Source: Mucilaginibacter sp. L294 (lineage in GTDB: Bacteria > Bacteroidota > Bacteroidia > Sphingobacteriales > Sphingobacteriaceae). Taken from it: 64,000 nucleotides of DNA. The position numbers were made by a program, and so were the translations under genes. The notes under the pieces are model-generated. The model saw only the letters and a program-made list of their open reading frames with translations, ran no database searches and had not been told where the DNA came from. The DNA lies in NCBI RefSeq assembly GCF_001636615.1, contig NZ_LGEK01000020.1:1-64000 (forward strand). The letters run 5' to 3'. Positions 45,352-59,546 of the stretch are shown here, one piece after another (position 1 is the stretch's first letter; the number at the start of each line of letters is the position of its first letter).

Positions 45352-46851
45352 TTATTGAACAATAACCGATACGTTCTCTACCTTCAGCTCTTCCTGAGGC
45401 GCGCCGCCATATTTTTTTATGGAGATGTTAAAGTTGGGTTGCGCCACGGCTCTAGAAAGGTTAAACTCCTTTGAGATCTCAAAAGTGAACGTTTCCTGCA
45501 TCTTGGCCGGCATACCATCCATTTTCATATCTTCCATGCCCGAGTGGTGGTCGGCACCAAAAAAGGTCATAAAGCCACTAAAGTAATCGCTTTTTGAATT
45601 GGCAACCGCGCCTTTTGGCAGGTTCAGGAAAACCTCGTAACCACCTTTGGGCGCTTTGGTGTATGATACCGTAACATTCATAAATACCTTTTGGTTAGCA
45701 TCGCTTTTTAGCAAACTGGTTTTGGCTATATTATTGGCAATCGTAAAATTGGTAACCTCTTTACTAACTACCACATTAGGCGCTTGTGAAGCCAGTGCGT
45801 TTTTAGCCTGTAGCTGCAACGGTGCCGATTTTAGTACGTTGGCAGGTTTGCCCTGCACCGGTGTATCGTCATAGTCATAATCCATAGTGTATAATATCTT
45901 CATGATATCTTCCATAGTGTACTGCACTTTTTTACCGTTCTCGTCAAAGAAGATATAAGGCCACGGCACCGATTTTAACTCCGCAAGGCTAACTTCCTGC
46001 CCATTACTGGTGTTGGTCCATTTTTGCCATACCCGGTCAATGTTGGCATGGTGTACCCAAAAGATCGGGTCGTAAGCTGCGGTTCTTACATCCTGCATCA
46101 AGCCGCCGCCCTGATCAAATTTTTGTTTAATGGGGTTAAACATGCCTTTGCCGGCCTCGCTATTGCCGTAACCAATATAATCGTGCATGGCCCCATGTGG
46201 CGCTGCATTCATGTTTTTGTTGAAGCCTGCGTAGGTGGTGTTATCAAACAGTTTTTTCAGGTCAATAAATTCCAGTATTTCGCCATGTAAGGGGGCGCCA
46301 TTGTTCAGGCTATCCAAACGGGCCTTTTCGTACAGGCTCGATTTGCTGTCCCGGTAAATAGCGGGCATGGTACGGCTTTGCTGCGCGTTTACTGTATCGG
46401 TGTATCCCCAGTAAGGCAGGCTGAAATCCGGATCGCCGGAGAGTTTGCGCACAATCTTCTCAAAATGATAAATATATAGCCTGTGCCATACCAAAAAGTG
46501 GATCACCTCTTTTTTTGATTTGGTGTGCGTGCAGTTATCCCAGGCCTCTTTCAGGTCTTTTGAGTAGTGGTAACTGGCGCAAAAAGGGTTATTGGGGATG
46601 GTATCGGGCACCCAGTGGATAGCACCTTGGTAATACCAGCTGCTGGTGCTGTCGCAATCCATTGCGCGCATAATGCCCAGGGCCTTCTTCAGGTCGTCCA
46701 TATCTTTTTGTGCTTTGGCCGAGTAAAGGCTTTTACGTATGTGGCGTATTTGTGTGCCCTGTGCTTTTTCGGTATTGCCGCTTTGGTTCCCTCCGCAGGC
46801 GCTCAGGACTACAGTAAATAAAATAGCCGCCCATTTTAGTGGTTTGTTCAT
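45352..46851 (-). CDS. Tyrosinase-family lipoprotein
   Basis: This 499-residue lipoprotein has a lipobox Cys at residue 19 (LSACGG) and a tyrosinase/polyphenol oxidase copper domain. CuA candidates are H79, H123 and H129 (VWHRLYIYHFE). CuB candidates are H219, H223 (APHGAMHD) and H267 (DPIFWVHHANIDRVW). A C-terminal beta domain resembles the plant polyphenol oxidase tail. It would oxidise phenols at the cell surface or in the periplasm. I chose the ATG at 46851, which directly starts the lipoprotein signal; the frame extends 15 codons upstream. Confidence 0.88.
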   Translation of the reverse strand: MNKPLKWAAILFTVVLSACGGNQSGNTEKAQGTQIRHIRKSLYSAKAQKDMDDLKKALGIMRAMDCDSTSSWYYQGAIHWVPDTIPNNPFCASYHYSKDLKEAWDNCTHTKSKKEVIHFLVWHRLYIYHFEKIVRKLSGDPDFSLPYWGYTDTVNAQQSRTMPAIYRDSKSSLYEKARLDSLNNGAPLHGEILEFIDLKKLFDNTTYAGFNKNMNAAPHGAMHDYIGYGNSEAGKGMFNPIKQKFDQGGGLMQDVRTAAYDPIFWVHHANIDRVWQKWTNTSNGQEVSLAELKSVPWPYIFFDENGKKVQYTMEDIMKILYTMDYDYDDTPVQGKPANVLKSAPLQLQAKNALASQAPNVVVSKEVTNFTIANNIAKTSLLKSDANQKVFMNVTVSYTKAPKGGYEVFLNLPKGAVANSKSDYFSGFMTFFGADHHSGMEDMKMDGMPAKMQETFTFEISKEFNLSRAVAQPNFNISIKKYGGAPQEELKVENVSVIVQ

Positions 46852-47130
46852 TGTGATGTGATTAAGGTTAGGTAATATAAATATACGCCATGACAAGGCC
46901 CCGACAAAAGGGTATAAACAGCTTTTTTGCGTGCTGTTATTCCGGGAGCCAAAAACAGATAAAAGGTTAACAGCAACCCACCGTACTCCATGAAGTAATA
47001 TTACGTTTTAGTGTTGTGTGTATAAAATTTGCAAATTGCGTACAACAAACAGGCGTATTAAATGTAATTTACACTGTATTTAACATCATACCTTTTGCCT
47101 GCCTTATAGGGCAATGTTTTTTAATAATAA
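46852..47130. other. Divergent intergenic region, tyrosinase and kinase genes
   Basis: This 279-base region lies between divergent genes and must hold both promoters. CATACCTTTTGCC (about 47088-47100) resembles a -7 box with one extra base for the kinase gene. I see no clear hairpin or ORF. Confidence 0.4.
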
Positions 47131-48507
47131 ATGAGTAAAGTATTTACGATAACAGAAGGGCTTGAAAACTTAGGCGCCATGAGCACCGGTGGGCAGGGCT
47201 CGGTTTATAAAGGCCGCCGCATGGGGCCTGTTTTAACGGCTATAAAACTCCTGCCGACACCTATCCATACCGAAAGTGAGGACGATAAGAATTTTCGCAA
47301 CTTTCGTAACGAGGTAAGTAAGCTGCAAAAAGTTAACGAACAGCCAAACCCAAATGTGGTGAAGATATTGAGCTCGGGCATTACCGATAGCGGCTCGTTC
47401 CCGTACATCGAGATGGAGTACATTGAGGGGCCTGATCTTTGCGAACTGCTGAAAGAGCCCCACGAAAAGATATTTATGCTTACCGAGGTGATCCGCGTGG
47501 CCGATCAATTGGCCAGCGCCCTGGCGCATTGCCATAAAGTAGGGGTAAAGCATGGCGACGTAAAAAGCAATAACGTAAAGTATAATATCCATACCGGCAA
47601 CTATGTGCTGCTTGATTTTGGCCTGGCCATCATGAGCGAGGAGCAGCGCCGTACCAGCATCCGCCATGCGGGGGCTATTGAATTTATGGCGCCCGAGCAA
47701 CACGACGGCAAAATGCTACTGGAAACCGATATTTATAGCTACGGCATCATCCTATATGAATTATTGACCGGCGAAGTACCATTCCCGCTGCATGGCGGTG
47801 GTGATGCAGGCCGTAACGCGGTGATGCTGGCGCATATTGAATCGCGGGTGCCTGATCTGCTGAATGCCCGCAGAAACTCGCTGCCAGATACCTGGGACCA
47901 GGAAAAGCGGGGGCGCGAAATGCAGCTGCCGCAATGGCTGCTTAAACTGGTAGAAAAATGCCTGGAAAAAGATCCGGCCAAAAGGTTCAGCAACGGTACA
48001 CAACTGCATGATGCTATTGTAACCGGCAGCCTTAGCGGGTCTGATAGTTTTGATATTGCCGGTGGCCTCAGCAATGCCGCCCTGCGCAGCGAGAACGAGC
48101 GCCTGCACAACCAGTTGCTGCAATATCAGCAATCGGGAGCGCCGGTCATTAAACAACAGATTGCCGCCGAACCTGTTGAAGATGAGTCGCGCGTATCGCT
48201 GTCAAAACCATATTACTATACGGTAATGGTGTTGCTGGTGTTGTTTATGGGCTTTTCGGTTTATGCTACGTTCCTGAAAAAAGAAGGTCGCCAAAATCAG
48301 TCAAAACAGGATTCGTCGCAAACAAAAGCAGATACCAGTACGGGTGTGCCCGATTATGGATCGAGGTTCCCTGCGGATAATGCGGCAGAGGATAGCCTAC
48401 CGGTAAAAAAAGATACTGTGGTGAAAAAGCCGGTAGTGATACCGCAAAAGCCGGCGCCTGATACTACAGGGACAATAGAAACCGATACAACTCAAAAACC
48501 AGAGTAG
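47131..48507 (+). CDS. PknB-like Ser/Thr protein kinase 1 with membrane anchor
   Basis: This 458-residue kinase has a full N-terminal kinase domain: G-rich loop GGQGSVYKG, K39, E61, catalytic loop H141-G142-D143, DFG at 162-164 and APEQ near 189. The usual HRD is HGD, so it belongs to the non-RD type. A coiled segment (residues 320-345) leads to one membrane helix (363-383), and a Pro/Thr/Lys-rich tail of about 75 residues lies outside. The first ~160 residues are almost the same as in the kinase at 56125. It opens the phospho-signalling and cell-wall gene cluster. Confidence 0.93.
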   Translation: MSKVFTITEGLENLGAMSTGGQGSVYKGRRMGPVLTAIKLLPTPIHTESEDDKNFRNFRNEVSKLQKVNEQPNPNVVKILSSGITDSGSFPYIEMEYIEGPDLCELLKEPHEKIFMLTEVIRVADQLASALAHCHKVGVKHGDVKSNNVKYNIHTGNYVLLDFGLAIMSEEQRRTSIRHAGAIEFMAPEQHDGKMLLETDIYSYGIILYELLTGEVPFPLHGGGDAGRNAVMLAHIESRVPDLLNARRNSLPDTWDQEKRGREMQLPQWLLKLVEKCLEKDPAKRFSNGTQLHDAIVTGSLSGSDSFDIAGGLSNAALRSENERLHNQLLQYQQSGAPVIKQQIAAEPVEDESRVSLSKPYYYTVMVLLVLFMGFSVYATFLKKEGRQNQSKQDSSQTKADTSTGVPDYGSRFPADNAAEDSLPVKKDTVVKKPVVIPQKPAPDTTGTIETDTTQKPE

Positions 48508-48570
48508 ATTTCGGATTTAGAATTTTGTGTTTAGAGTTTAGTAATTAGCATTTAGAATTTAAAAGGAAAC

Positions 48571-49515
48571 ATGGCCTCAACACCAAATTTTTGGCAGCGC
48601 ATTGGCATACAGGATTGGTTTTTAACCAACGAGAGTACCGAGAAGGCAAAGGCTAAAGCCCTTACGCCCGATACGGTTTACAGTTACATTGTGGAGAAAT
48701 TCCGCGACTCGATCAAAGACCTTTCCTTTGCCGATCGCGTAGTATTTTACCACGAATTCATCATCAGTTTCAATGCCGATGATTACAAGGAATTTGTTGC
48801 CGATAAACAAGGCATCTTCGGCCTTATCGTACAGGAAACGGTGACTAAGTTTTACGAGATATTGAAAGAATATCGCGCAGCTGGCAAAACGGTAAAACCC
48901 TCGGGCTCTAAATGGGTGTTCAGGCTGGTATCACACCCTGATTATGCCCGTGGCGATAAGGGCTTTATTGGCAAATTACTGCCCGATAATAATCAGAAAG
49001 AGCAGAACCTTAGGGTAACCTTCATCCCGCGGCAAACGGGCATCGCCCAAACCTTTGATGTAAGCCAGGAAGCGTTAAAAGGCTTTACTTATTACAGCGA
49101 GGGTTACTTCGAGATCCCGTACGAGCAGGAACTGGAACCCGAAGAGCAAAAGGCCGCCAAAACGCAAAACACTGTAGCCCGGTTGGAAACCATCATCCCC
49201 GACCAGCAGTTTGCCGGTAAAAAGGTAGAGTACCTGATGAAGGACGAAGAGATCATCGTATCGGGCAGCGAGGAAACACGCGAAGATTCAAACATCTTCA
49301 CCATCCCAAGTGATTGGGTGAACGCCCCACACCTGCAAATACGTTATAACAAGGCTGATAGCAAATTTTACCTGGCATCATTCGGCGAGATAACCACACT
49401 GAACGAAGTTGCCATAGCCCGCAGCGATATCAACTCGCCGCAATGGGTGGAGCTGCCGGTAAACTCGCGCATGCTGCTGAACGGTATTATTGGTTTAAAC
49501 CTTTTTAAAGCATGA
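48571..49515 (+). CDS. Unrecognised protein with probable degenerate FHA domain
   Basis: This 314-residue cytoplasmic protein has no family I can name with certainty. The N-terminal part (residues 30-110) has helices resembling those of the FHA protein at 55341. The C-terminal part (from about residue 215) follows an FHA-like strand order: EEIIVSGSEE, APHLQIRYNKADSKFYLAS, then a final hydrophobic strand. The Gly-Arg of the phosphothreonine site is not kept (VSGSEE), so binding may be lost or changed. It lies between kinase 1 and the phosphatase. Confidence 0.75.
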   Translation: MASTPNFWQRIGIQDWFLTNESTEKAKAKALTPDTVYSYIVEKFRDSIKDLSFADRVVFYHEFIISFNADDYKEFVADKQGIFGLIVQETVTKFYEILKEYRAAGKTVKPSGSKWVFRLVSHPDYARGDKGFIGKLLPDNNQKEQNLRVTFIPRQTGIAQTFDVSQEALKGFTYYSEGYFEIPYEQELEPEEQKAAKTQNTVARLETIIPDQQFAGKKVEYLMKDEEIIVSGSEETREDSNIFTIPSDWVNAPHLQIRYNKADSKFYLASFGEITTLNEVAIARSDINSPQWVELPVNSRMLLNGIIGLNLFKA

Positions 49516-49535
49516 TGATGGGAAATAAATTAATC

Positions 49536-49636
49536 AACCACAGAGTGCACAGAGATATGCAAACAGCCAACCACAGAGTACACAGAGGTGTGATCAAACA
49601 GCCCTCTGTGCTTCTCCCTCAGTGCTCTCTGTGGTT
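49536..49636. repeat. ACCACAGAG inverted repeat, copy 2
   Basis: AACCACAGAG occurs directly repeated at 49536 and 49569, and both can pair with CTCTCTGTGGTT ending at 49636. It is related to 21742-21831 and fills the gap before the small membrane gene. Confidence 0.8.
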
Positions 49637-49657
49637 ACTTAAAAAGAATTCTTAAGT

Positions 49658-49756
49658 ATGTCGCAAATATTATCCATAGGCTTATTGGTGATTGGGTTTT
49701 TCCTGTTGGTGACCCATTTTGCTGATATTAAAAACTCAGGTAAACGCAATGGCTGA
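49658..49756 (+). CDS. 32-residue single-pass membrane protein, coupled to PP2C gene
   Basis: This short ORF starts at ATG 49658 and encodes 32 residues: a short polar start, one hydrophobic helix (about residues 4-22, ILSIGLLVIGFFLLVTHFA) and a basic tail (KNSGKRNG). Its stop overlaps the start of the phosphatase gene in ATGGCTGA, a typical translational-coupling arrangement. I do not recognise a family. It could be a small regulator or anchor of the phosphatase. The call rests on the helix, tail and overlap. Confidence 0.6.
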   Translation: MSQILSIGLLVIGFFLLVTHFADIKNSGKRNG

Positions 49757-51218
49757 AAACTATTTTGGATTAACCGATACAGGCAAGGTACGTACCAATA
49801 ACGAGGATACCTTTATTACCCAAAAGGTAATGGGCAACCGTATGGTACTGGCTGCCGTAATTGATGGGGTTGGTGGTTATAGCGGCGGCGAGGTAGCTGC
49901 CGATATAGCGAAAAATGTGATCATTGATAGGCTGAGTGGCCTACAGGGCGAGATCATCCCAGGTATGATAGATGCCTTTAAACTGGCCAGCAAACAGATC
50001 TCTGACAGGAAACTGGAAGATAAAGAACTGGAAAGCATGGCCTGCGTAGCTACCATGGCCCTGGTCGACCTGGAGAACAACCAGTTTTTTTACGCGCACG
50101 TAGGCGATACGCGTTTGTATTTGCTGCGCGATGCTTCATTGATAAAGATCTCTAAAGACCACTCCTTTGTAGGCTTTTTAGAAGACAGCGGCAGGCTCAC
50201 CGAGGATGCGGCCATGAACCACCCCAAACGTAACGAGATAAACAAAGCCCTGGGCTTTACCAGCCAGATAGATACCGACGAGAGTTTTATCGAAACAGGG
50301 CAGTCGCCGTTTTTACCAGGCGACCTGCTGCTAATTTGCAGCGATGGCTTAACCGACCTGGTAGATAAGAACGGTATATTGGATATCATTACCCAAAAAA
50401 CCTCCCTGCAAGATAAAGCAGCACAGCTCATAACTACCGCCAATGCCAACGGCGGGCGCGATAACGTGACCGTTGTACTGGTACAAAACGATAAGGCGCA
50501 GCAAAGGCCGCAGGCCACCATGCCCGCATCATCGCCCGCAAAAAGGAACGATGAAGCAGATGATGGGATTACACCAGCCCGCCCCAAACAACAACACATC
50601 GAACCCGAAATAATATACAAAGCACCTATGGGGCCAAACAGAAACCTCGGTTTAACGCTTATACTGGGCTTTTTGTGCCTGGTGTTCCTGTCATCAACTA
50701 TCTGGTTGTTTTTAACTAAACAAAAGGCGGCTGCATTACCCGGCGAAACAGATACAGCTATCGTGCAAAAGTTGCGTAATGCTGATGAAGTAAAACTGCA
50801 GGATGCCATTGATGCTTTTAAAGGCGATACGCTGGTGTTATCAGATACCGCGTTCAAACAACCTATTATCATCACTGATACTTTGCATATTGACCAGGAT
50901 ACGCTGTACATCAAAGTAAAGGGTAACATTACCCTGCAACGCGATACATCCTATAAAGGCCCGGCCTTATCCATAGCAACAGATAATAAAGTTGTAGTGC
51001 TGGAGAACCTGAAATTTAAAGATTTTAATACAGGCATTGATCTGGGCAACAGTAGCTTGTTTTTAAAGAATACGCAGTTCATTAACTGCAAATTGCATGT
51101 TCAGCGTAAGTATGATCTACCTGATAGTAAGCCCGTGAATGCCGATTTCCCTGCTACAAAAGTAAACCCGCAAACTGCTAAACCCCAAACCCCTGCCAAG
51201 CCGAATGGAACCCGATAA
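49749..51218 (+). CDS. PP2C-family Ser/Thr phosphatase with membrane helix and external beta-rich tail
   Basis: This 489-residue phosphatase has a complete PP2C domain: E19-D20, D39-G40 (VIDGVGG), D120 (VGDTR), D199-G200 (CSDGLTDL) and D238 (GRDNVTV) as metal-site residues. A Pro/Gln-rich linker leads to one membrane helix (300-323). The outer tail (330-489) has repeated short strands resembling a beta-helix (VVVLENLKFKDF, SLFLKNTQFINC). I chose the ATG at 49749; the frame opens at 49719 without similarity. The layout is like mycobacterial PstP. Its end overlaps the SEDS-PBP gene by 14 bases. Confidence 0.92.
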   Translation: MAENYFGLTDTGKVRTNNEDTFITQKVMGNRMVLAAVIDGVGGYSGGEVAADIAKNVIIDRLSGLQGEIIPGMIDAFKLASKQISDRKLEDKELESMACVATMALVDLENNQFFYAHVGDTRLYLLRDASLIKISKDHSFVGFLEDSGRLTEDAAMNHPKRNEINKALGFTSQIDTDESFIETGQSPFLPGDLLLICSDGLTDLVDKNGILDIITQKTSLQDKAAQLITTANANGGRDNVTVVLVQNDKAQQRPQATMPASSPAKRNDEADDGITPARPKQQHIEPEIIYKAPMGPNRNLGLTLILGFLCLVFLSSTIWLFLTKQKAAALPGETDTAIVQKLRNADEVKLQDAIDAFKGDTLVLSDTAFKQPIIITDTLHIDQDTLYIKVKGNITLQRDTSYKGPALSIATDNKVVVLENLKFKDFNTGIDLGNSSLFLKNTQFINCKLHVQRKYDLPDSKPVNADFPATKVNPQTAKPQTPAKPNGTR

Positions 51219-54200
51219 AATACAAGTGGTAAGCAGGTGGAAGGAACGCATTTTTCTGCTGTTGATAAGCGTTCTGTTCGTGTTTTTGTTCTTCAGGTTG
51301 CACGCGGTTTTGCAAACCCGCTTTACCGATGTAGACAAGCGCCTGCAGGACGGCACTATGATAAACCTGAATGCGCCCGACCCGGCAGGGCAGCTGAAAA
51401 AGCTGCTGACCAGGGGGTATTACTTTGAGGACAAACGCGACATAGACCTGATAACCACAACAGTCGCCAATGCATCGGGCGGTGCCACTCAGGTTGATAA
51501 TATTGGCGAACTGAATAAACGCAAATACTTTATTGGTGCGGATGATGCTTTTGCTAAAGGCGGTAAATCGTTCAAAAGCAGGGTAGATGCCTCGCGATCC
51601 CTGTTAGGCTACACCGGCGAAGATTCACTGCTGTTTGTAAGCGAAAAGGAAAACCCGGTTAAAGCCCCCCAGGTAACCGACCTGGCCCTGGGCGATCAGA
51701 GCATCAGCGCAAGCATCATTAATAAAAAACAACCCGTAGCCGGCGTTTTGGTAAAGCTGGAAATGATACTGCCGCAGGATAGTATTTATAATGACGAAGA
51801 AATTGAGGACGTTAAGCTGATCACCGAAAATGGTAACGGCTTTAAAAAGATATTTACACCCGATAGCGCCGGTAAAAAACACTTGCAAAGCTTAACCGCC
51901 TATGCTCGTACCAACGAACAGGGCATTGCGGAGTTTAAGAGCCTGCCCGAGGGCAAAGCCTTTAAAGTGCTGCCGCTGCAACCGGGGTACCAGTTTGGTG
52001 CATCGCAGGGGATTCAAAACCTGGATGATGACGCCAGCTTTACTTTCAGCCAGCAGCCACATACCATCAGGCTTTTTTCTACTAAAGATTTTAATATCCT
52101 CAAAAAGGAGAAATCGCTCATCATCCGTACGCCTGTCGAGTTTAACAAATGGTTCCTCATTATCTCAGGCAGTTTTATAGCGGCGTTTTTGCTGGTTCAT
52201 ATCATCCTTTCATGGAAGTTCAGCACAGCCGATCAGTTGATCTTACCGGTAGTGATGATACTGGCGGGATTGTCGTTTTTAACCTTATTAAGCCTGCAAG
52301 ACCCCCTGCGCGACCGTTTTTTGGCTAAAGATATGCTGGCTTACCTTGGCATCGGCCTTGTGGCCATGTTGGTGATGCTGCAGTTTAAACTGCGCCGCTT
52401 TACGCCCGATTCGTGGATTTACCGCATGCTGGTGTTTAAGCATAACCGCAATGCGGCAAACGGCTGGCCATGGGTAGTACTGGCGGCTACGCTGCTGGCC
52501 ATGACCATTAAATTTGGTACCGGCCCCGAAGGTAGCGGCGTTAAGGTAAACCTGTTTGGCTTTCAGCCCAGCGAAATTGTAAAATATTTGATCATCCTTT
52601 TCCTGGCGGGATTTTTCGCCGCTAATGAAAAGCTTATCAGCGAATACAGCAGCTGGAATAAACGCTGGCAGTTCTTTTCGTTTGCTTTGATCGCCATATT
52701 GGTAACGCTGCTATTGTTCCTGCTACTGGGCGATCTGGGCCCGGCCATGGTGGTATGCTTTACCTTTATTGTGTTGTTCTCCTTCTCCCGTGGCGATTTT
52801 ATGTTTATGGCGGGTGCGGTGGTGCTTTACGTCATTGTATCATGGGTGGTAAAAAATGTATGGCTGTCGGCATTGATAACAGCGGCGATTGCAGCCTTGT
52901 TTATGGCTTTCAAACGTAAATCTATAAGCGAATCGGCTATGATGGTGCTCATTATCATGGCGGCATTTTTAACGATAGATCAGATCCCGTATTTAGGCAA
53001 ACTGTTCCCCGGCCCGGTGCAAAGGCTGGTTGATCGTAAGGCCATTTGGCAGGACGCCTGGAATAACGAGGTTTACGGTGGCGACCAGGTAGCCAACGGC
53101 CTTTGGGCCATGAGCAGCGGTGGCGTAAGCGGCCAGGGCGTAGGCGAGGGTTTTGCCAAAACCATCCCCGAGGCACATACCGATATGATATTACCATCCA
53201 TGGGCGAAGAATTCGGGTGGACGGGGATCACATGTATCTTCATCCTGTTCCTGCTTTACCTGCACCGATCCATCATTATTGGCCGGCGAACGGGCACACC
53301 ATTTCTGTTTTACCTGTGCGCGGGGATAGGTATATCCACATTTGTGCAGTTTATGCTGATAGCGGGCGGTTCAACCGGGGCGCTGCCGTTGTCGGGTGTT
53401 TCGCTACCGTTCCAGAGTTATGGCGGGTCGTCACTGGTGGCTAACTTATTGGCATCAGGCTTTTTGCTTTCAGCCTCCCTCGTAAGGGGCACGCCGGTAC
53501 AGATGAATTATATATCGCGCCAGCAGGATAAAAACCTGGTGCCCGCGCTGCTTGGCGCTGTAGCAGGTATTGTGTTGCTATCGGTAAATGTATCGCGGTA
53601 TTCGTTCGATAATAAAAAATGGGTGGTAAAACCCTCCCTGGTGGCCGATAAAAGCGGCGCCCGGATGTTTAGCTATAACCCACGCATCGCCATATTAATG
53701 AACCGGTTAGAGGCCGGTAATATCTACGACCGCGACGGCGTACTGCTGGCTACCAGCAAACCCGAACTGGTGATACAGCAACATCGCAAACTGGTACAGG
53801 CAGGGGCTATCGGTTATAATATAGATTCGGCCATGCACAAGCGGCTGGACAGGTATTACCCCTTTGATGAACAGATGTTCTTTTGGACGGGCGACGCCAA
53901 TACCGGTGTTTTCAACGGAAGCCCCAATGGTTATTTTGCCGAATATGAGCATGCCGCCGAATTGCGCGGTTTTAAAATGCCAACCGAAAAGTATAACGTT
54001 ACCGCCAACCGCTACCGCGAGGACCGGTTTTTGGCCCGTGGCGTAAAAGAAATGACGGTGGTTAAGCGCGATTACAGCGCCATTGCCCCGTTGCTTTTAG
54101 CAGGCATCAATAGCACCGAAGTGGAAGCCTTTAAAAAACGCAACCGCGATATCAAACTAACCATGGATGCATCGTTGCAAACAAGCATCCAAAACTCGAT

Positions 54201-55275
54201 AGCGCAGGACACCTCTTTGCTGGATAACCGGGTATCGGTTGTGGTGATGGAATCAAACACCGGCGATGTGCTTACTTCGGCGGTTTACCCGCTGCCACCC
54301 GTGCACGACTGGGAAAAACTAACCATGAGCTACGCAGAACAAAACCAACTGGCCGGGTGGGCAACCACGCAGGATCTTGGCTTTACGCTGGCTACGCAGC
54401 CTGGTTCTACCGCTAAGCTGGCAACTTCTATCGCATCGTTTAATAAATTGGGGCTTGCAGCTGTTAATCGCAAATTTAACGTGGAAAGCTACGAGCGTAT
54501 CCGTACCAAAGGTTTAGAACCTGATGAAACCGGGCTGATAACCCTGGAGCGCGCCGTTGCCAAATCAAACAACGTGTATTTTATTAAGCTGGCAAATGAG
54601 GAACACTTGCAGGAGCAAATGGCCACCGTTTATATGAAAACCGGTATGTTTTTACACGGGGTAGGCGGTTATTATTACGGCCGCGATAAAGAGAACGCCG
54701 CGCAGGAAGAAAAGTGGCGGGAACTTTGGCGTAAAACCGAGTTTAATACCAAGCCAAAATACAACCCGAATAATATCCGCAAAACAAGGGCTAAGGGTAT
54801 CTCGGGCATGGCATGGGGCCAGGGCGAGCTGATCGCTACCCCGGCATCGGTAGCGCGTATGGCGGCGGCTATAGCCAACCACGGCACCATATTGCAAAAC
54901 AGGTATGTGCTAAAGGTGAACGATTCGACCGTAGCGGTTAAGCCGGGCACTAAACTAACCAACGATCCTAAATATGCTGCCTTGTTGCGCCAGTATATGA
55001 TAGAGCAAAGCGCGCCAAAGGAATGGATACTGAACCTCGCGGTAGCTGGTAAAACCGGTACGCCCGAGCGCATTTGGAAAAAACAGCAGATAAACGATGG
55101 CTGGTATGTGTTTTTTGCGCCGAAAGCGAACGGCAGCGGGAATATGGTGGTATGTATCAGGATAGAATCTACAAAAGGTTCATCGGATGCGGTGAGGCTG
55201 GCGGGTAAGCACGTGATACCATTCCTGAAAGAAAAAGGATATATTAAAAGTATTAAAGAGCAAACAAGTGAATAA
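51205..55275 (+). CDS. SEDS glycosyltransferase (RodA/FtsW) fused to class B penicillin-binding protein
   Basis: This 1356-residue protein joins two peptidoglycan enzymes. Residues 15-32 form a membrane helix, 33-312 an external region with an Ig/regulatory-like domain (NEQGIAEFKSLPEG). Residues 314-760 form the SEDS polymerase, with QPSEIVK (454-460), probable catalytic D660 (EAHTD) and SYGGSS (738-743). Residues about 830-1350 form the transpeptidase, with S1068-T-A-K1071, S1121-N-N and K1283-T-G. All expected catalytic motifs are present. It would polymerise and crosslink glycan strands as one unit. It overlaps the phosphatase gene, implying coupling. Confidence 0.93.
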   Translation: MEPDKIQVVSRWKERIFLLLISVLFVFLFFRLHAVLQTRFTDVDKRLQDGTMINLNAPDPAGQLKKLLTRGYYFEDKRDIDLITTTVANASGGATQVDNIGELNKRKYFIGADDAFAKGGKSFKSRVDASRSLLGYTGEDSLLFVSEKENPVKAPQVTDLALGDQSISASIINKKQPVAGVLVKLEMILPQDSIYNDEEIEDVKLITENGNGFKKIFTPDSAGKKHLQSLTAYARTNEQGIAEFKSLPEGKAFKVLPLQPGYQFGASQGIQNLDDDASFTFSQQPHTIRLFSTKDFNILKKEKSLIIRTPVEFNKWFLIISGSFIAAFLLVHIILSWKFSTADQLILPVVMILAGLSFLTLLSLQDPLRDRFLAKDMLAYLGIGLVAMLVMLQFKLRRFTPDSWIYRMLVFKHNRNAANGWPWVVLAATLLAMTIKFGTGPEGSGVKVNLFGFQPSEIVKYLIILFLAGFFAANEKLISEYSSWNKRWQFFSFALIAILVTLLLFLLLGDLGPAMVVCFTFIVLFSFSRGDFMFMAGAVVLYVIVSWVVKNVWLSALITAAIAALFMAFKRKSISESAMMVLIIMAAFLTIDQIPYLGKLFPGPVQRLVDRKAIWQDAWNNEVYGGDQVANGLWAMSSGGVSGQGVGEGFAKTIPEAHTDMILPSMGEEFGWTGITCIFILFLLYLHRSIIIGRRTGTPFLFYLCAGIGISTFVQFMLIAGGSTGALPLSGVSLPFQSYGGSSLVANLLASGFLLSASLVRGTPVQMNYISRQQDKNLVPALLGAVAGIVLLSVNVSRYSFDNKKWVVKPSLVADKSGARMFSYNPRIAILMNRLEAGNIYDRDGVLLATSKPELVIQQHRKLVQAGAIGYNIDSAMHKRLDRYYPFDEQMFFWTGDANTGVFNGSPNGYFAEYEHAAELRGFKMPTEKYNVTANRYREDRFLARGVKEMTVVKRDYSAIAPLLLAGINSTEVEAFKKRNRDIKLTMDASLQTSIQNSIAQDTSLLDNRVSVVVMESNTGDVLTSAVYPLPPVHDWEKLTMSYAEQNQLAGWATTQDLGFTLATQPGSTAKLATSIASFNKLGLAAVNRKFNVESYERIRTKGLEPDETGLITLERAVAKSNNVYFIKLANEEHLQEQMATVYMKTGMFLHGVGGYYYGRDKENAAQEEKWRELWRKTEFNTKPKYNPNNIRKTRAKGISGMAWGQGELIATPASVARMAAAIANHGTILQNRYVLKVNDSTVAVKPGTKLTNDPKYAALLRQYMIEQSAPKEWILNLAVAGKTGTPERIWKKQQINDGWYVFFAPKANGSGNMVVCIRIESTKGSSDAVRLAGKHVIPFLKEKGYIKSIKEQTSE

Positions 55276-55340
55276 CCCTCGGGTTTAGCATAATATAAAA
55301 CTGTTTTTTTGGTTCAATAATAATAGTACTACGCGTCATT

Positions 55341-56132
55341 ATGTTCAATTTGTTTAAAAACGATAAGGAAAACCGGCCTGTGGATGTAAAAAGCATCCGT
55401 TATGAACTGCTGCAGTTTATTAAACAAGAGCTGCAAAAGGCCGAGGGTGGTGAGGGCGGCAATATCAAAGGCTTAAACCTTTTTATCAATTGTCCATCAT
55501 CAGAAAAAGCGATGTACGAGGCCGCTGTTTATACCGAAGAACCTGAATTGTTTAAAGACGAAGTACAACGCATTGCGGATGATTATGCCGTTAACCTGCC
55601 CGAAACATGGCTGATGGAGGTGATATTCGACCATGAATTTCCGGATGAAGCAACCCGGGCGAAAAAACTGGATGCGGCTTTCTTTATTAAAACGAGCAAG
55701 AATTTTATTAAACAAAGCGCTACCGCTTACCTGCATGCATTAAGCGGCGAAACTGATCAAAAGGAGTATAGTATTACTTCCGATAGCGAGAAGATCCACA
55801 TCGGTAGGGATAAAAAAGCGCAGGGCGATGATGGCTTTTTCCGTACCAATCATATCGCGTTCCCGAGTGATAGCGCGAACGAAAGCAACAAATATGTAAG
55901 CAGGCAGCACGCCCATATCGAGTGGAACAACGATGCAGGCCGTTTTATGCTTTTTGCTGATGAAGGCGGGGTGCCGCCAAGGAATAAGATCAAGATCAGG
56001 TCGGAGAAGAGCGAGGATATTATCAAACTTACATCTACCCATATCGGTCACCAGTTACAGGAAGGCGATCAGATCATTTTAGGCGAATCGGCAGTGTTAG
56101 AATTTAGTTACCAACCCGCAACGAATGAGTAA
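55341..56132 (+). CDS. FHA-domain protein
   Basis: This 263-residue cytoplasmic protein has an N-terminal helical/mixed region (residues 15-145) and a C-terminal FHA domain (about 150-260). The phosphothreonine-binding residues are kept: G-R in KIHIGRDK and S-x-x-H in YVSRQHAHIEW. It probably docks on phosphorylated kinase or cell-wall proteins. The stop overlaps the start of kinase 2 by 8 bases (ATGAGTAA), so the two are made together. Confidence 0.9.
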   Translation: MFNLFKNDKENRPVDVKSIRYELLQFIKQELQKAEGGEGGNIKGLNLFINCPSSEKAMYEAAVYTEEPELFKDEVQRIADDYAVNLPETWLMEVIFDHEFPDEATRAKKLDAAFFIKTSKNFIKQSATAYLHALSGETDQKEYSITSDSEKIHIGRDKKAQGDDGFFRTNHIAFPSDSANESNKYVSRQHAHIEWNNDAGRFMLFADEGGVPPRNKIKIRSEKSEDIIKLTSTHIGHQLQEGDQIILGESAVLEFSYQPATNE

Positions 56133-57546
56133 AGTTTTTACCATAACAGAAGGTTTAGAGAACCTTGGCGCCCTGCGAACGGGCGGGCAAGGGTCAGTAT
56201 ACAAAGGCCGCCGCATGGGGCCGGTACTTACCGCTGTAAAGCTGCTGCCAACCCCCATCCACTCCGAAAGCGAGGACGATAAAAACTTCCGCAACTTTAG
56301 TAATGAGGTTGCCAAACTGCAAAAGGTAAACGAAGAACCCAACCCCAACGTTGTAAAAATATTAAGCTCGGGCATTACCGAGAGCGGCTCGCTGCCATAC
56401 ATCGAGATGGAGTATATTGAAGGGCCTGACCTGTGCGAACTGCTGCAAGCCCCGCACGAAAAGATCTTTATGCTGAAAGAGGCGATCCGGGTGGCAGATC
56501 AACTTGCAAATGCCCTGGCGCATTGCCATAAAGTAGGGGTAAAGCACGGCGATGTAAAAAGCAATAACGTAAAATATAATATACATACCGGTAATTATGT
56601 ACTGTTGGATTTTGGCCTGGCGGTAATGACGGAAGAAGAGCGCCGCAGCAGCATCCGCCATGCCGGGGCAATTGAATTTATGGCACCCGAACAGCACGAC
56701 GGCGCCATGCTGCTGCAAACGGATATTTACAGTTATGGTATCATTTTATATGAATTATTAACCAGCAGTGTTCCTTTCCCGCTTACCGGTAATGGCGAAA
56801 CCGGCCGTAACGCCATTATGCTGGCACACATGGAAACCCCTGTGCCCGATCTGCGCGAGGCCCGTAAAAACAGCCTGCCCGATAGCTGGAGCGCCCTTAA
56901 ACAAACACAGGAACTTCAAGTGCCGCAATGGCTGCTTGATGTAATTGATAAATGCCTGCAAAAAGCACCCGAAGCGCGTTTTAAAAGTGGCGTTGAACTG
57001 CATGAGGCCATTATAAACGGCAGCCTTGCCGCCGATGGTAAATTAAGCACAACCGCCATACAAGCCGAGAACGAACGTCTGCAACACATGGTAGCCCATT
57101 ACCAGCAAGACGAAGAAGCGAAGGATAAACAGTTATCTTCCCTAAAACTTTTAACAGGAGAGGGCGGGGTGAGATATAATGAAGAAAAAGGCACTTATGA
57201 GCGCGACAATTCAAAAATATTATTGTCGAAAAGTGCATTTGGCCTGGTGCTGACACTTTGCGGCATATTTATAGCACTATTTGTTTATTCGGCATTTATA
57301 GATAAAGATGAAGCCACGGGAAACGTTATACCCATATACGTTGATGCCCGCGATTACCTGAAGCCACCTTTTATGGCCCGCGCCTATAATCAGGATAGCG
57401 TGATAGGGGTATTATATAGCCGAAAAGTATTAGCAGCCCGTAGGGCTGCCGCAAACAAGGCAATAAAAGCCACTGTAGATTCGGCAATTATAAAAGCCGC
57501 CACGCCCGTTAAGAAAAAACGTAAAAAATTCCTGGGACTATTTTAA
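56125..57546 (+). CDS. PknB-like Ser/Thr protein kinase 2 with membrane anchor
   Basis: This 473-residue paralogue of kinase 1 shares its G-loop, K39, H141-G142-D143 and DFG. The N-terminal ~160 residues are nearly the same, and divergence increases after the kinase core. A coiled segment (313-345) leads to one membrane helix (370-393) and an external tail of about 80 residues ending in a basic stretch (VKKKRKKFLGLF). The two kinases differ mainly in their outer tails, so they may read different envelope signals but share targets. The gene overlaps the FHA gene by 8 bases and ends the cluster. Confidence 0.93.
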   Translation: MSKVFTITEGLENLGALRTGGQGSVYKGRRMGPVLTAVKLLPTPIHSESEDDKNFRNFSNEVAKLQKVNEEPNPNVVKILSSGITESGSLPYIEMEYIEGPDLCELLQAPHEKIFMLKEAIRVADQLANALAHCHKVGVKHGDVKSNNVKYNIHTGNYVLLDFGLAVMTEEERRSSIRHAGAIEFMAPEQHDGAMLLQTDIYSYGIILYELLTSSVPFPLTGNGETGRNAIMLAHMETPVPDLREARKNSLPDSWSALKQTQELQVPQWLLDVIDKCLQKAPEARFKSGVELHEAIINGSLAADGKLSTTAIQAENERLQHMVAHYQQDEEAKDKQLSSLKLLTGEGGVRYNEEKGTYERDNSKILLSKSAFGLVLTLCGIFIALFVYSAFIDKDEATGNVIPIYVDARDYLKPPFMARAYNQDSVIGVLYSRKVLAARRAAANKAIKATVDSAIIKAATPVKKKRKKFLGLF

Positions 57547-57646: not shown

Positions 57647-58768
57647 ATGAAAAAGCTTCTTACGTTTTATATACTGTTACTGGCTTTGCCCGGGATTGCT
57701 TTAGCCCAGGAACATAAAACCATGGCTATTGGACAACCTGCGCCCGATTTTAAGCTGAAAGGGGTGGATGATAAAACCTATACGCTGCAAACCTTCAGCA
57801 AGGCTAAAGTACTGGCGGTGGTGTTTATATGCAACCATTGCCCAACATCGCAGGCATACGAGGAGCGCATTAAAAAAATGACTGCCGACTATGCCGGTAA
57901 AGGTGTAAAGATAGTGGCTATCAGTCCGAATGACCCTGCATCCTTGCGATTAGATGAACTGGGCTACAGCGATGTGGGCGACTCTTTTGCCGATATGAAG
58001 CACCGCGCAAAAGAAAAGGCCCTTAACTTTCCGTACCTGTACGATGGCGATACCGAGATAGCATCAAAACAATACGGCCCGGTGGCTACCCCGCATATTT
58101 TTATTTTTGACGAAGCCCGGAAACTCCGTTATAATGGCCGTATTGATGATACCGAAGATCCTGCAAAACCTATCAAATCGCCGGATGCCATAAATGCAAT
58201 TGAAGCATTGCTGAGTAGCAAGGAAGTGCCGGTAACGGTAACCAAAACATTTGGATGCTCTATCAAATGGGCCGAAAAGCGAGACTGGATCCAAAAAGCC
58301 GCCGTTACCTGGGCCAAAGAACCTGTTAATCTGGATGTTATTGATGCCGATGGTATTACTAAACTGGTAAAGAATGGCAGCGGCAAATTGCGCCTCATAA
58401 ACCTTTGGGCTACTTGGTGCGTGCCATGTGTGCAGGAGTTCCCGGAGCTGGTGACCATTAACCATATGTACCGCGATAGGGGCCTGGAGTTTGTAACCAT
58501 CAGCGCGGATGCTGCATCCCGTAAGGAAAACGCTTTGAGGTTTTTGCAGAACAAACAAGCATCGGGCAAAAACTATATTTATACCGGCGATGATAAGTAT
58601 AAGATGATTGAGGCGGTTGACCCTAAATGGGATGGCGCCCTGCCATACACCATGCTGGTTGACCCGGATGGCAAAATTGTTTACGCCAAGCAGGGCATAA
58701 TTGACCCTGAAGCGCTTAAGAAGATCATTTTTGATGTGCCAATGATGGGCCGAATCTATAAAGACTAA
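57647..58768 (+). CDS. Secreted protein with two thioredoxin-like domains
   Basis: This 373-residue protein has a signal peptide (cleavage near ALAQE). The first redoxin domain (residues 25-185) has C62-N-H-C65 in VVFICNHCPTS. The second (about 235-370) has C258-V-P-C261 in INLWATWCVPC. A conserved-looking FGCSIKW (C204) lies between them. It probably carries out thiol-disulfide reactions in the periplasm. It starts 100 bases after kinase 2 and may form a unit with the ThuA gene 7 bases downstream. Confidence 0.88.
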   Translation: MKKLLTFYILLLALPGIALAQEHKTMAIGQPAPDFKLKGVDDKTYTLQTFSKAKVLAVVFICNHCPTSQAYEERIKKMTADYAGKGVKIVAISPNDPASLRLDELGYSDVGDSFADMKHRAKEKALNFPYLYDGDTEIASKQYGPVATPHIFIFDEARKLRYNGRIDDTEDPAKPIKSPDAINAIEALLSSKEVPVTVTKTFGCSIKWAEKRDWIQKAAVTWAKEPVNLDVIDADGITKLVKNGSGKLRLINLWATWCVPCVQEFPELVTINHMYRDRGLEFVTISADAASRKENALRFLQNKQASGKNYIYTGDDKYKMIEAVDPKWDGALPYTMLVDPDGKIVYAKQGIIDPEALKKIIFDVPMMGRIYKD

Positions 58769-58775
58769 CCTGGAT

Positions 58776-59546
58776 ATGAAACAATTTCTTACATTCCTGT
58801 TGCTGCTGATAGGTATAGCCTGCCTTGGGTTTACGGCATCGGCACAAAAAATAAAATCCTTTAAAGTGCTGGCTTTATATGAAAATGGTGGCCACCATGT
58901 AGCATATTCCAAACGGGCTAAAGTTTGGCTTAATCAGCTGGCCACGCAAAAAGGCTTTACGATTGATTACATCGAGAATACCGATAAAATTGATGATGCT
59001 TTTTTGAGTAAGTATCAACTGTTCATCCAATTAGATTATGCGCCCTACGCCTGGAAGGATAAGGCAGCAAAGGCCTTCGAGAAATATATTAACGAGGGCA
59101 GGGGCGGTTGGATAGGTTTCCATCATGCTACGCTTTTGGGTGAGTTTGACGGGTACCCCATGTGGGGTTGGTTCTCGGCCTTTATGGGTGGCATCAGGTG
59201 GAAGGATTATATAGCCACTTTTGCAAAAGGTAAGGTAAACGTAGAGGATAAACAGCACCCTGTGATGAAAGGCGTGCCGGCATCATTCCTGGTACAACAG
59301 GAGGAGTGGTACACGTACGATAAAAGCCCGAGGGCCAATGTGCATGTGCTGGCCAGCGTAGATGAAAGCACCTACGACCCACAGCAGCCCAAGGTAAAAA
59401 TGGGCGATCATCCCGTAGTGTGGACAAACCCGCATTATAAAGCGCGCAACGTATATATATTTATGGGTCACTCGCCAAATCTGTTTAATAACCCGGCTTA
59501 TACCAGGCTGTTTACTAACGCAATTTTTTGGGCGGCGGGCAAATAA
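58776..59546 (+). CDS. Secreted ThuA-domain protein
   Basis: This 256-residue protein has a signal peptide (cleavage near ASAQK) and one ThuA domain with a glutamine-amidotransferase-like fold. VLALYENGGHHVAYS, GGWIGFHHATL and VVWTNPHYKARNVYIFMGHSPNLF are typical. ThuA family members are linked to trehalose and other 3-keto-glycoside use in rhizobia, and secreted versions are frequent in Bacteroidota. It may be functionally linked to the 3-keto-sugar loci in this window, but the distance makes that speculative. Confidence 0.88.
   Translation: MKQFLTFLLLLIGIACLGFTASAQKIKSFKVLALYENGGHHVAYSKRAKVWLNQLATQKGFTIDYIENTDKIDDAFLSKYQLFIQLDYAPYAWKDKAAKAFEKYINEGRGGWIGFHHATLLGEFDGYPMWGWFSAFMGGIRWKDYIATFAKGKVNVEDKQHPVMKGVPASFLVQQEEWYTYDKSPRANVHVLASVDESTYDPQQPKVKMGDHPVVWTNPHYKARNVYIFMGHSPNLFNNPAYTRLFTNAIFWAAGK

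Follow-up and report, generated by a model that had tools for sequence, protein, structure and literature searches.

What does a set of Ser/Thr signalling genes do around a peptidoglycan synthase in a Gram-negative soil bacterium? The question is raised by a locus of Mucilaginibacter sp. L294 (Bacteroidota), which lies within the 64,000-nucleotide stretch of contig NZ_LGEK01000020.1 that was analysed here and is referred to as the window. Between positions 47131 and 57546, its plus strand carries seven genes, encoding a kinase (K1), an FhaA-like protein (F1), a 32-residue membrane protein, a PP2C phosphatase, a fusion of a SEDS glycosyltransferase and a class B penicillin-binding protein (PBP), an FHA protein and a second kinase (K2). 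The point of reference is the fhaA-fhaB-pstP-rodA-pbpA-pknA-pknB locus of the actinobacteria, the control centre of cell-wall growth in these Gram-positive bacteria, which in mycobacteria controls growth and division and whose kinases have many targets there. A preliminary description of the window had taken the seven genes for a phospho-controlled peptidoglycan synthase module, and the sequence comparisons reported below support that reading. We consider it likely that the locus represents a self-contained, phospho-regulated peptidoglycan synthase module that shares, at least for its SEDS half, common descent with the actinobacterial locus. The support comes from the conservation of the operon, the intact catalytic residues, the grouping of the SEDS half, the FHA fold of F1 and the fact that the Pkinase, PP2C_2 and FHA domains of the genome are confined to this set. 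The features of the locus are the following.

47131..48507, plus strand: K1, Hanks-type Ser/Thr kinase of 458 residues (Pfam Pkinase, 1.8e-36)
48571..49515, plus strand: F1, FhaA-like protein of 314 residues, assigned by predicted fold, the protein itself having no Pfam match
49658..49756, plus strand: single-helix membrane protein of 32 residues (conserved short open reading frame)
49749..51218, plus strand: PP2C Ser/Thr phosphatase (Pfam PP2C, 6.4e-13)
51205..55275, plus strand: SEDS-class B PBP fusion of 1356 residues (FTSW_RODA_SPOVE, 9.2e-47, and Transpeptidase, 6.6e-23, in one chain)
51307..52140, plus strand: N-terminal domain of the fusion, probably of the transthyretin-like (CarboxypepD_reg) fold
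52141..53499, plus strand: SEDS glycosyltransferase part of the fusion, with an extra hydrophobic stretch at its N-terminus (Pfam, trees)
53557..55254, plus strand: class B PBP part of the fusion, with the transpeptidase domain at residues 1011-1326 (Pfam, motif residues)
55341..56132, plus strand: FHA protein of 263 residues (Pfam FHA, 2.3e-4)
56125..57546, plus strand: K2, Ser/Thr kinase of 473 residues (Pfam Pkinase, 9.9e-34)

All seven open reading frames (ORFs) were verified at these coordinates, and the same ORFs and Pfam matches bear out the gene count, the common strand and the overlaps of 8, 14 and 8 bases given in the preliminary description. The 32-residue ORF and the PP2C gene share 8 bases provided that the latter starts at ATG 49749 (the mechanical call is longer and begins at TTG 49719), the PP2C and fusion genes share 14 (51205-51218), and the FHA and K2 genes share 8 (56125-56132).

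That related genomes keep the gene set together, and that the fusion gene normally has kinase and phosphatase neighbours, had been set beforehand as tests of the idea. The fusion was found in at least 75 distinct loci, among others of Mucilaginibacter, Pedobacter, Daejeonella, Paradesertivirga, Segetibacter, Ferruginibacter and Flaviaesturariibacter, using DNA patterns that favour close relatives; the closest named match among those listed was Mucilaginibacter rigui, at 96% identity. Together with five further genome stretches these loci made a sample of 80, in 78 of which the fusion ORF was called. The 69 loci with at least 6 kb upstream and at least 5 kb downstream were kept and nine with short flanks were dropped; two loci (L042 and L094) have an identical fusion sequence and were counted twice. 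Beside the fusion, F1 was called in all 69 loci; PP2C, FHA and a kinase on the same strand were each called in 68, the kinase lying upstream in 59 and downstream in 52. The gaps, in L036 and L044, were ORF-calling misses, as tblastn recovered the missing genes there, and after this check no locus of the 69 lacked kinase, phosphatase and FHA neighbours. The genes that flank the block vary between species, and the block is retained even in three distant genomes at 34-40% identity, two of which have the order F1-PP2C-kinase-kinase-fusion-FHA. The seven-gene set is a conserved unit, and both expectations were borne out.

The set also accounts for the Ser/Thr signalling domains of its genome: K1 and K2 are the only Pkinase matches, and the module phosphatase and FHA protein are the only PP2C_2 and FHA matches, respectively. 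The kinase survey covered 52 of 201 genomes of the source family (33 of the 40 with a fusion and 19 of the 161 without). In all 33 fusion genomes a kinase was located within 6.5 kb of the fusion, and in 21 of them none was present elsewhere, whereas any kinase (E <= 1e-10) was found in seven of the 19 fusion-free genomes (Fisher p 2.4e-7 for the association, with the caveat that related genomes are not independent). An FHA match turned up in no more than 21 of the 52 genomes, including two fusion-free ones, because the FHA family is divergent. We also considered whether the kinases that stand alone in fusion-free genomes are what remained after K1 and K2 recombined and the module was lost, but found no support for this: in six of the seven kinase-bearing fusion-free genomes (G397 was left out) the kinase loci were at most 32% identical to K1/K2 or gave no match. 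A fusion-free genome of the same genus carries another cluster (L179, 4092-14214), composed of an FHA protein, two kinases and a PP2C, with kinases around 30% identical to K1/K2.

The SEDS part of the fusion matches PF01098 with 160 bits (cut-off 26.4), and the PBP part is of class B, having the SxxK, SxN and KTG motifs and no class A glycosyltransferase domain. The residues S1068/K1071, S1121/N1123 and K1283/G1285 of the PBP part and D660 of the SEDS part, the Asp of the PE.HTD loop that we take to be the essential SEDS residue, are invariant in 76 of 76 aligned fusions, including that of the window, and because of this invariance the fusion looks catalytically active. The preliminary description had rightly placed both domains in one chain, but had overlooked the domain of ~275 residues that precedes the SEDS part and that lies, judged by eye, between the first and second membrane helix. 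Although the window copy of this domain gave no match, 23 of 24 family members matched PF13620 at E values up to 10 (best 1e-6), so that a transthyretin-like fold is probable; a PDB search with the domain gave a best E of 1.6. The fusion is a third SEDS gene, alongside an FtsW in a mur cluster and a RodA beside PBP2 in this genome, and two further SEDS genes were present in all six fusion genomes searched.

Turning to the proteins that may read phosphorylated threonines, the FHA protein has its own N-terminal domain and a C-terminal FHA domain (residues 153-248; 55797-56084). All 37 family members matched Pfam FHA at E values up to 10 (best 1.6e-6), and G155, R156, S187, R188 and H190 are invariant in all 37. 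We take the GR and SxxH motifs to be the phospho-Thr binding pocket, and by these motifs the protein would belong to the phospho-Thr-reading FHA proteins. Its profile had a best E of 0.91 in the PDB sequence search and aligned with that of F1 over only 20 columns. F1 itself, which had been described as a probable degenerate FHA protein, gave no Pfam match in the window, and its profile reached a best E of 0.3 in the PDB sequence search. That description was nevertheless right: five of 26 F1 family members match FHA (PF00498) at E values up to 10 (best 2.1e-5), and the predicted C-terminal domain (residues 199-314; 49165-49512) has the FHA fold of MDC1 (Z 14.2, 2.0 A over 101 residues) and also matches the FHA domain of Rv0020c (2lc1, E 2.3e-5). 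By eye, its pocket residues are mostly replaced, with N-x-P-H in place of the expected S-R-x-H in most rows and S-N-P-H in L090 and L091, and it is a probable degenerate FHA domain by this predicted structure. For the N-terminal domain (modelled residues 27-196; 48649-49158), an FhaA_N domain had been suspected before the fold search, from an order of helix-strand-helix-helix-strand-strand, presumably that of FhaA_N. The domain was modelled alone (predicted local distance difference test, pLDDT, 79; predicted template modelling score, pTM, 0.75) and compared by Foldseek with 350,542 PDB chains. The first match was the N-terminal domain of Rv0020c/FhaA (2lc0, probability 0.90, the next best of 50 rows having 0.41), although weak in itself (E 0.11, TM 0.41/0.50), and VIA likewise ranked 2lc0 first (Z 6.1, 3.9 A over 104 residues, 19% identity). 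These scores would not be convincing by themselves; they become so in part because the expectation preceded the search, and we regard the modelled domain as a likely, though not firm, FhaA_N.

The 32-residue protein, with a consensus like MSQILSIGLLxIxxxLLxTHFxDIKNSxKxNG, can be regarded on the basis of its conservation as a real gene, as had been proposed: of 74 F1-PP2C intervals, 71 contain a short ORF with the signature [HN]F..IK, and the three that gave none belong to the most distant loci (L090-L092). The phosphatase begins with its catalytic domain; by eye, a linker leads from there to a single membrane helix, beyond which lies an outer domain of ~160 residues. In K1, the kinase domain (residues 17-288) has the catalytic loop HGDVKSNN (non-RD) and is followed, again by eye, by a membrane helix at ~362-383 and a Thr/Pro-rich tail; in K2 the corresponding positions are 18-287 and ~370-392. 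HxDxKxxN is kept in the kinases, with HGD in 131 of the 137 ORFs of the fetched loci and HRD in five, while one gave no match. The K1 and K2 genes, ~9 kb apart in direct orientation, are 80% identical in DNA over 765 bases (47131-47895 and 56125-56889). In the 45 loci with a kinase on either side, the same-genome copies join within clades of 2-28 sequences, with L092 as the one exception, and only one of the 45 pairs consists of mutual nearest rows, as if the flanking kinases had been duplicated or converted several times. In L092, a distant module, the flanking kinases share no more than 29% identity, whereas those of the other loci are near-duplicates.

Whether the module was assembled within Bacteroidota or shares its origin with the actinobacterial locus had been left open in the preliminary description ('convergent or acquired'). 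In a SEDS tree of 35 sequences (two long rows removed from a full set of 37), nine fusions, five actinobacterial RodA and an FHA-linked SEDS of the clostridium Monoglobus fell on one side of a branch with support of 100/99 (99/96 in the full 37-sequence set). The actinobacterial rows stem from records deposited as plasmids; in three of them (Nonomuraea, Tsukamurella, Actinomyces oris) RodA lies in a complete pknB locus, in the Embleya row a kinase was the only neighbour identified, in the Streptomyces row there was none, and the Arthrobacter RodA, split into two ORFs, was left out. The grouping held without Monoglobus (100/99) and without the actinobacteria (99/96). Approximately unbiased (AU) tests rejected a union of the fusion with Bacteroidota RodA (p-AU 0.0019), with Bacteroidota FtsW (0.0073) and with Bacteroidota and proteobacterial RodA (0.032), but did not reject one with the actinobacteria without Monoglobus (0.111). 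Among five-sequence profiles, the actinobacterial RodA scored top in nine of nine fusions (112-137 bits; Bacteroidota RodA, 65-98; FtsW, 67-85), an advantage that is partly due to its greater length. In addition, actinobacterial RodA and the fusions have in common the motif D-x-x-(I/L)-L-P at the first common helix (located by eye) and a preceding hydrophobic stretch; Monoglobus has the stretch and lacks the P of the motif, and of the six other SEDS shown five have 13-19 residues before this helix and E. coli FtsW has 48. Within the limits of this sampling, the SEDS half groups with the RodA lineage of the actinobacterial pknB-type locus, and the data favour an ancestry shared with the Gram-positive locus for this half and, more weakly, for the FhaA-like protein. 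For the PBP half, placements with PbpA, PBP2 and FtsI are all compatible with the data.

Several observations weigh against the relationship proposed here. The SEDS branches are long and the outgroups few (no cyanobacteria, few Firmicutes), and the tree without actinobacteria carries a program warning that long branches meet. The PBP part forms a separate long branch, for which the AU tests allow a union with PbpA (0.435), with PBP2 (0.319) and with FtsI, the last being that of the best tree (65/53). No PASTA family was among the Pfam matches of the kinases, and their best NCBIfam model, PknB/Stk1 (NF033483), reached 144.8 and 148.1 bits, around a third of the cut-off of 450. The PDB-chain scores of the phosphatase are close together, with 118.8 bits for 2j82 and 5iti, which we take to be cyanobacterial PP2C, 107.5 for Stp1 and 106.6 for PstP. 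As to F1, apart from the modest scores of the 2lc0 match, encapsulins reached a VIA Z of 5.8 and are tied with 2lc0 (rows less than 1 apart count as tied), hhalign against a profile of three FhaA sequences gave p 0.12 over the collinear domain, and the FhaA_N Pfam model (PF12401), run on six module genomes, gave no match on F1 and two weak matches elsewhere.

As regards its spread, at E <= 1e-100, a strict threshold which distant copies may escape, the fusion is present in 10 of 395 Bacteroidota genomes (5 of 170 genera), in 40 of 201 genomes of the source family (7 of 25 genera) and in 23 of the 35 listed genomes of the genus itself. A 137-kb plasmid of Spirosoma oryzicola (L099, NZ_CP089545.1) carries the block in the order F1-PP2C-kinase-kinase-fusion-FHA; there, the block is followed by a hypothetical gene and then a two-component system. 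In the SEDS tree the copy of one genome (G269) joins the Spirosoma-like copies (95/88; only 85/61 in the PBP tree), yet the copy of a second genome of the same family (G033, family f2) falls on the opposite side. This split and the plasmid copy suggest that the block moved by horizontal transfer; a search of viral contigs found no relative. Given its patchy presence, the module is probably dispensable.

The alternative of convergence, in which an operon of similar appearance was put together in Bacteroidota from RodA/FtsW, PBP2/FtsI, kinase, PP2C and FHA genes of their own, would agree with a PBP half that is not assignable to the actinobacterial branch, with kinases and a phosphatase that were not notably close to PknB/PstP in the searches carried out, and with flanking kinases whose 80% identity reflects local duplication. 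We nevertheless regard it as unlikely, as derivation of the SEDS half from Bacteroidota RodA or FtsW fails the AU tests, the sequence stretch before the SEDS core is common to the fusions and actinobacterial RodA, the N-terminal domain of FhaA is the first Foldseek match of F1, and five parts occur in the same order. That the fusion simply is the ordinary elongation or division synthase of the lineage, for which its SEDS and PBP activities would be typical, can hardly be maintained: it is contradicted by the FtsW in the mur cluster and the RodA beside PBP2, and among the 35 genomes listed for the genus, 12 have no fusion at E <= 1e-100.

The proposed module could have a more specific role as a back-up wall synthase for survival of beta-lactam or envelope stress, for example with a low-affinity PBP and with the kinases as trigger. 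This variant of the preferred explanation is possible, though we would not bet on it. The fusion exists alongside FtsW and RodA, has a scattered occurrence (40 of 201 family genomes) and is in one case plasmid-borne, and the best PBP chains in the PDB sequence search were PBP2a/PBP2' and not PBP2 or FtsI; the similarity to PBP2a is weak, however (at best 1.9e-9 across ~160 residues), and no single placement emerges from the PBP tree, a tree built without PBP2a. Mobility and patchiness would also suit a conflict or anti-phage module acting on the cell wall, all the more as two kinases and a PP2C resemble the kinase-kinase-phosphatase (KKP) layout, so named in PMC11341870, and as the kinases match the PADLOC models PD-T4-6 and mad6 and the PP2C, weakly, PDC-M21C. 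These kinase matches are to the kinase domain only, however, F1, the fusion and the FHA protein gave none, and the invariant catalytic residues of both wall enzymes fit a biosynthetic role, which makes a function in defence very improbable.

Taking the locus as a phospho-regulated synthase module, we infer the signal, the substrates and the effect of the kinase control as follows. The two kinases, residing in the inner membrane, would respond to a signal from the envelope or from growth by phosphorylating threonines, both their own and those of module proteins. The FHA protein would read these phospho-threonines, and F1, given its degenerate pocket, may act as a scaffold, so that reading and scaffolding together recruit or switch on the single-chain enzyme. 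The fusion would then polymerise lipid II via its SEDS half and cross-link the product via its PBP half, the pairing of polymerase and transpeptidase being fixed at 1:1, and the PP2C would reset the system. In this scheme the module works beside the ordinary division and elongation synthases.

On a wider scale, we lean towards the view of a cross-phylum system that can be transferred and that includes the actinobacterial 'growth control' locus as one of its forms. The Bacteroidota form would be a single-chain, signal-gated third synthase, travelling as one block (on plasmids too) and serving as the main client of the kinases. The association of FhaA, PP2C, RodA and PbpA would thereby be extended beyond the Gram-positive phyla, and a natural one-chain SEDS-PBP enzyme would become available for structure work. 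The many targets of the mycobacterial kinases make the step that acts directly on the synthase hard to isolate. With a self-contained module in cultivable Gram-negatives, and with no other Pkinase match in 21 of the 33 fusion genomes checked, one could test, separately from other targets, whether phosphorylation controls a SEDS-PBP pair directly.

Concerning the surroundings of the operon, a gene for a tyrosinase-domain protein is located immediately upstream on the minus strand (45352-46896), and at the same place in L005. Immediately 3' of K2 lies a gene (57647-58768) whose product has an AhpC/Redoxin domain and, behind it, a thioredoxin-like domain; in the window this gene sits between K2 and a ThuA-like gene (58776-59546). 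The latter occurs in 10 of the 80 loci and immediately follows the second kinase in L005, L008, L010, L028, L031 and L063. A promoter scan was uninformative (19 found, 17.3 expected); the same scan found 22 terminator-like elements where 14.6 were expected.

A literature search, judged by titles and abstract openings and with most subscription papers outside its coverage, returned no recognised description of the module in Bacteroidota. Its nearest known counterpart is the actinobacterial locus, described in PMC11898655 as a highly conserved operon of Mycobacteriales. Both comprise, on one strand, an FhaA-like protein, a PP2C, a RodA-type SEDS, a class B PBP, Ser/Thr kinases and an FHA protein, and their SEDS halves group together. 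The preliminary description had called the gene order broadly the same, and this holds for FhaA-PP2C-SEDS-PBP-kinase, the order of Nonomuraea, Tsukamurella, A. oris and Arthrobacter, but not for the FHA gene, which in Bacteroidota is found 3' of the fusion instead of before the phosphatase. The Bacteroidota module differs further in that SEDS and PBP form one chain with an added N-terminal domain, the kinases are without PASTA, mostly have an HGD loop and often stand one on either side, and there is an extra membrane protein of 32 residues; moreover, it occurs in a Gram-negative phylum, as a third synthase, and also on a plasmid. Within the Firmicutes, some members have pknB-fhaA clusters according to PMC6554272. 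In Monoglobus pectinilyticus (L105, 5712-8697) an FHA gene adjoins SEDS and PBP genes, as in the module, and the SEDS falls in the same group, but the three genes are separate; no Ser/Thr kinase or PP2C was present among the 11 annotated features of this 13.7-kb stretch, whose gene table is incomplete, and the trio may represent a minimal form of the system. The RodA-PBP2 and FtsW-FtsI pairs of E. coli consist of the same catalytic parts with the same residues, but belong to a different SEDS branch than the fusion and, to our knowledge, are not under the control of a Ser/Thr kinase operon. Finally, natural SEDS-PBP single ORFs exist, PMC10449877 citing the Rhodococcus RHA1 genome, and an artificial RodA-PBP2 fusion has been constructed (PMC6207328). 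The Rhodococcus-type fusions likewise unite polymerase and transpeptidase in one polypeptide; the Bacteroidota fusion is tied to a signalling operon.

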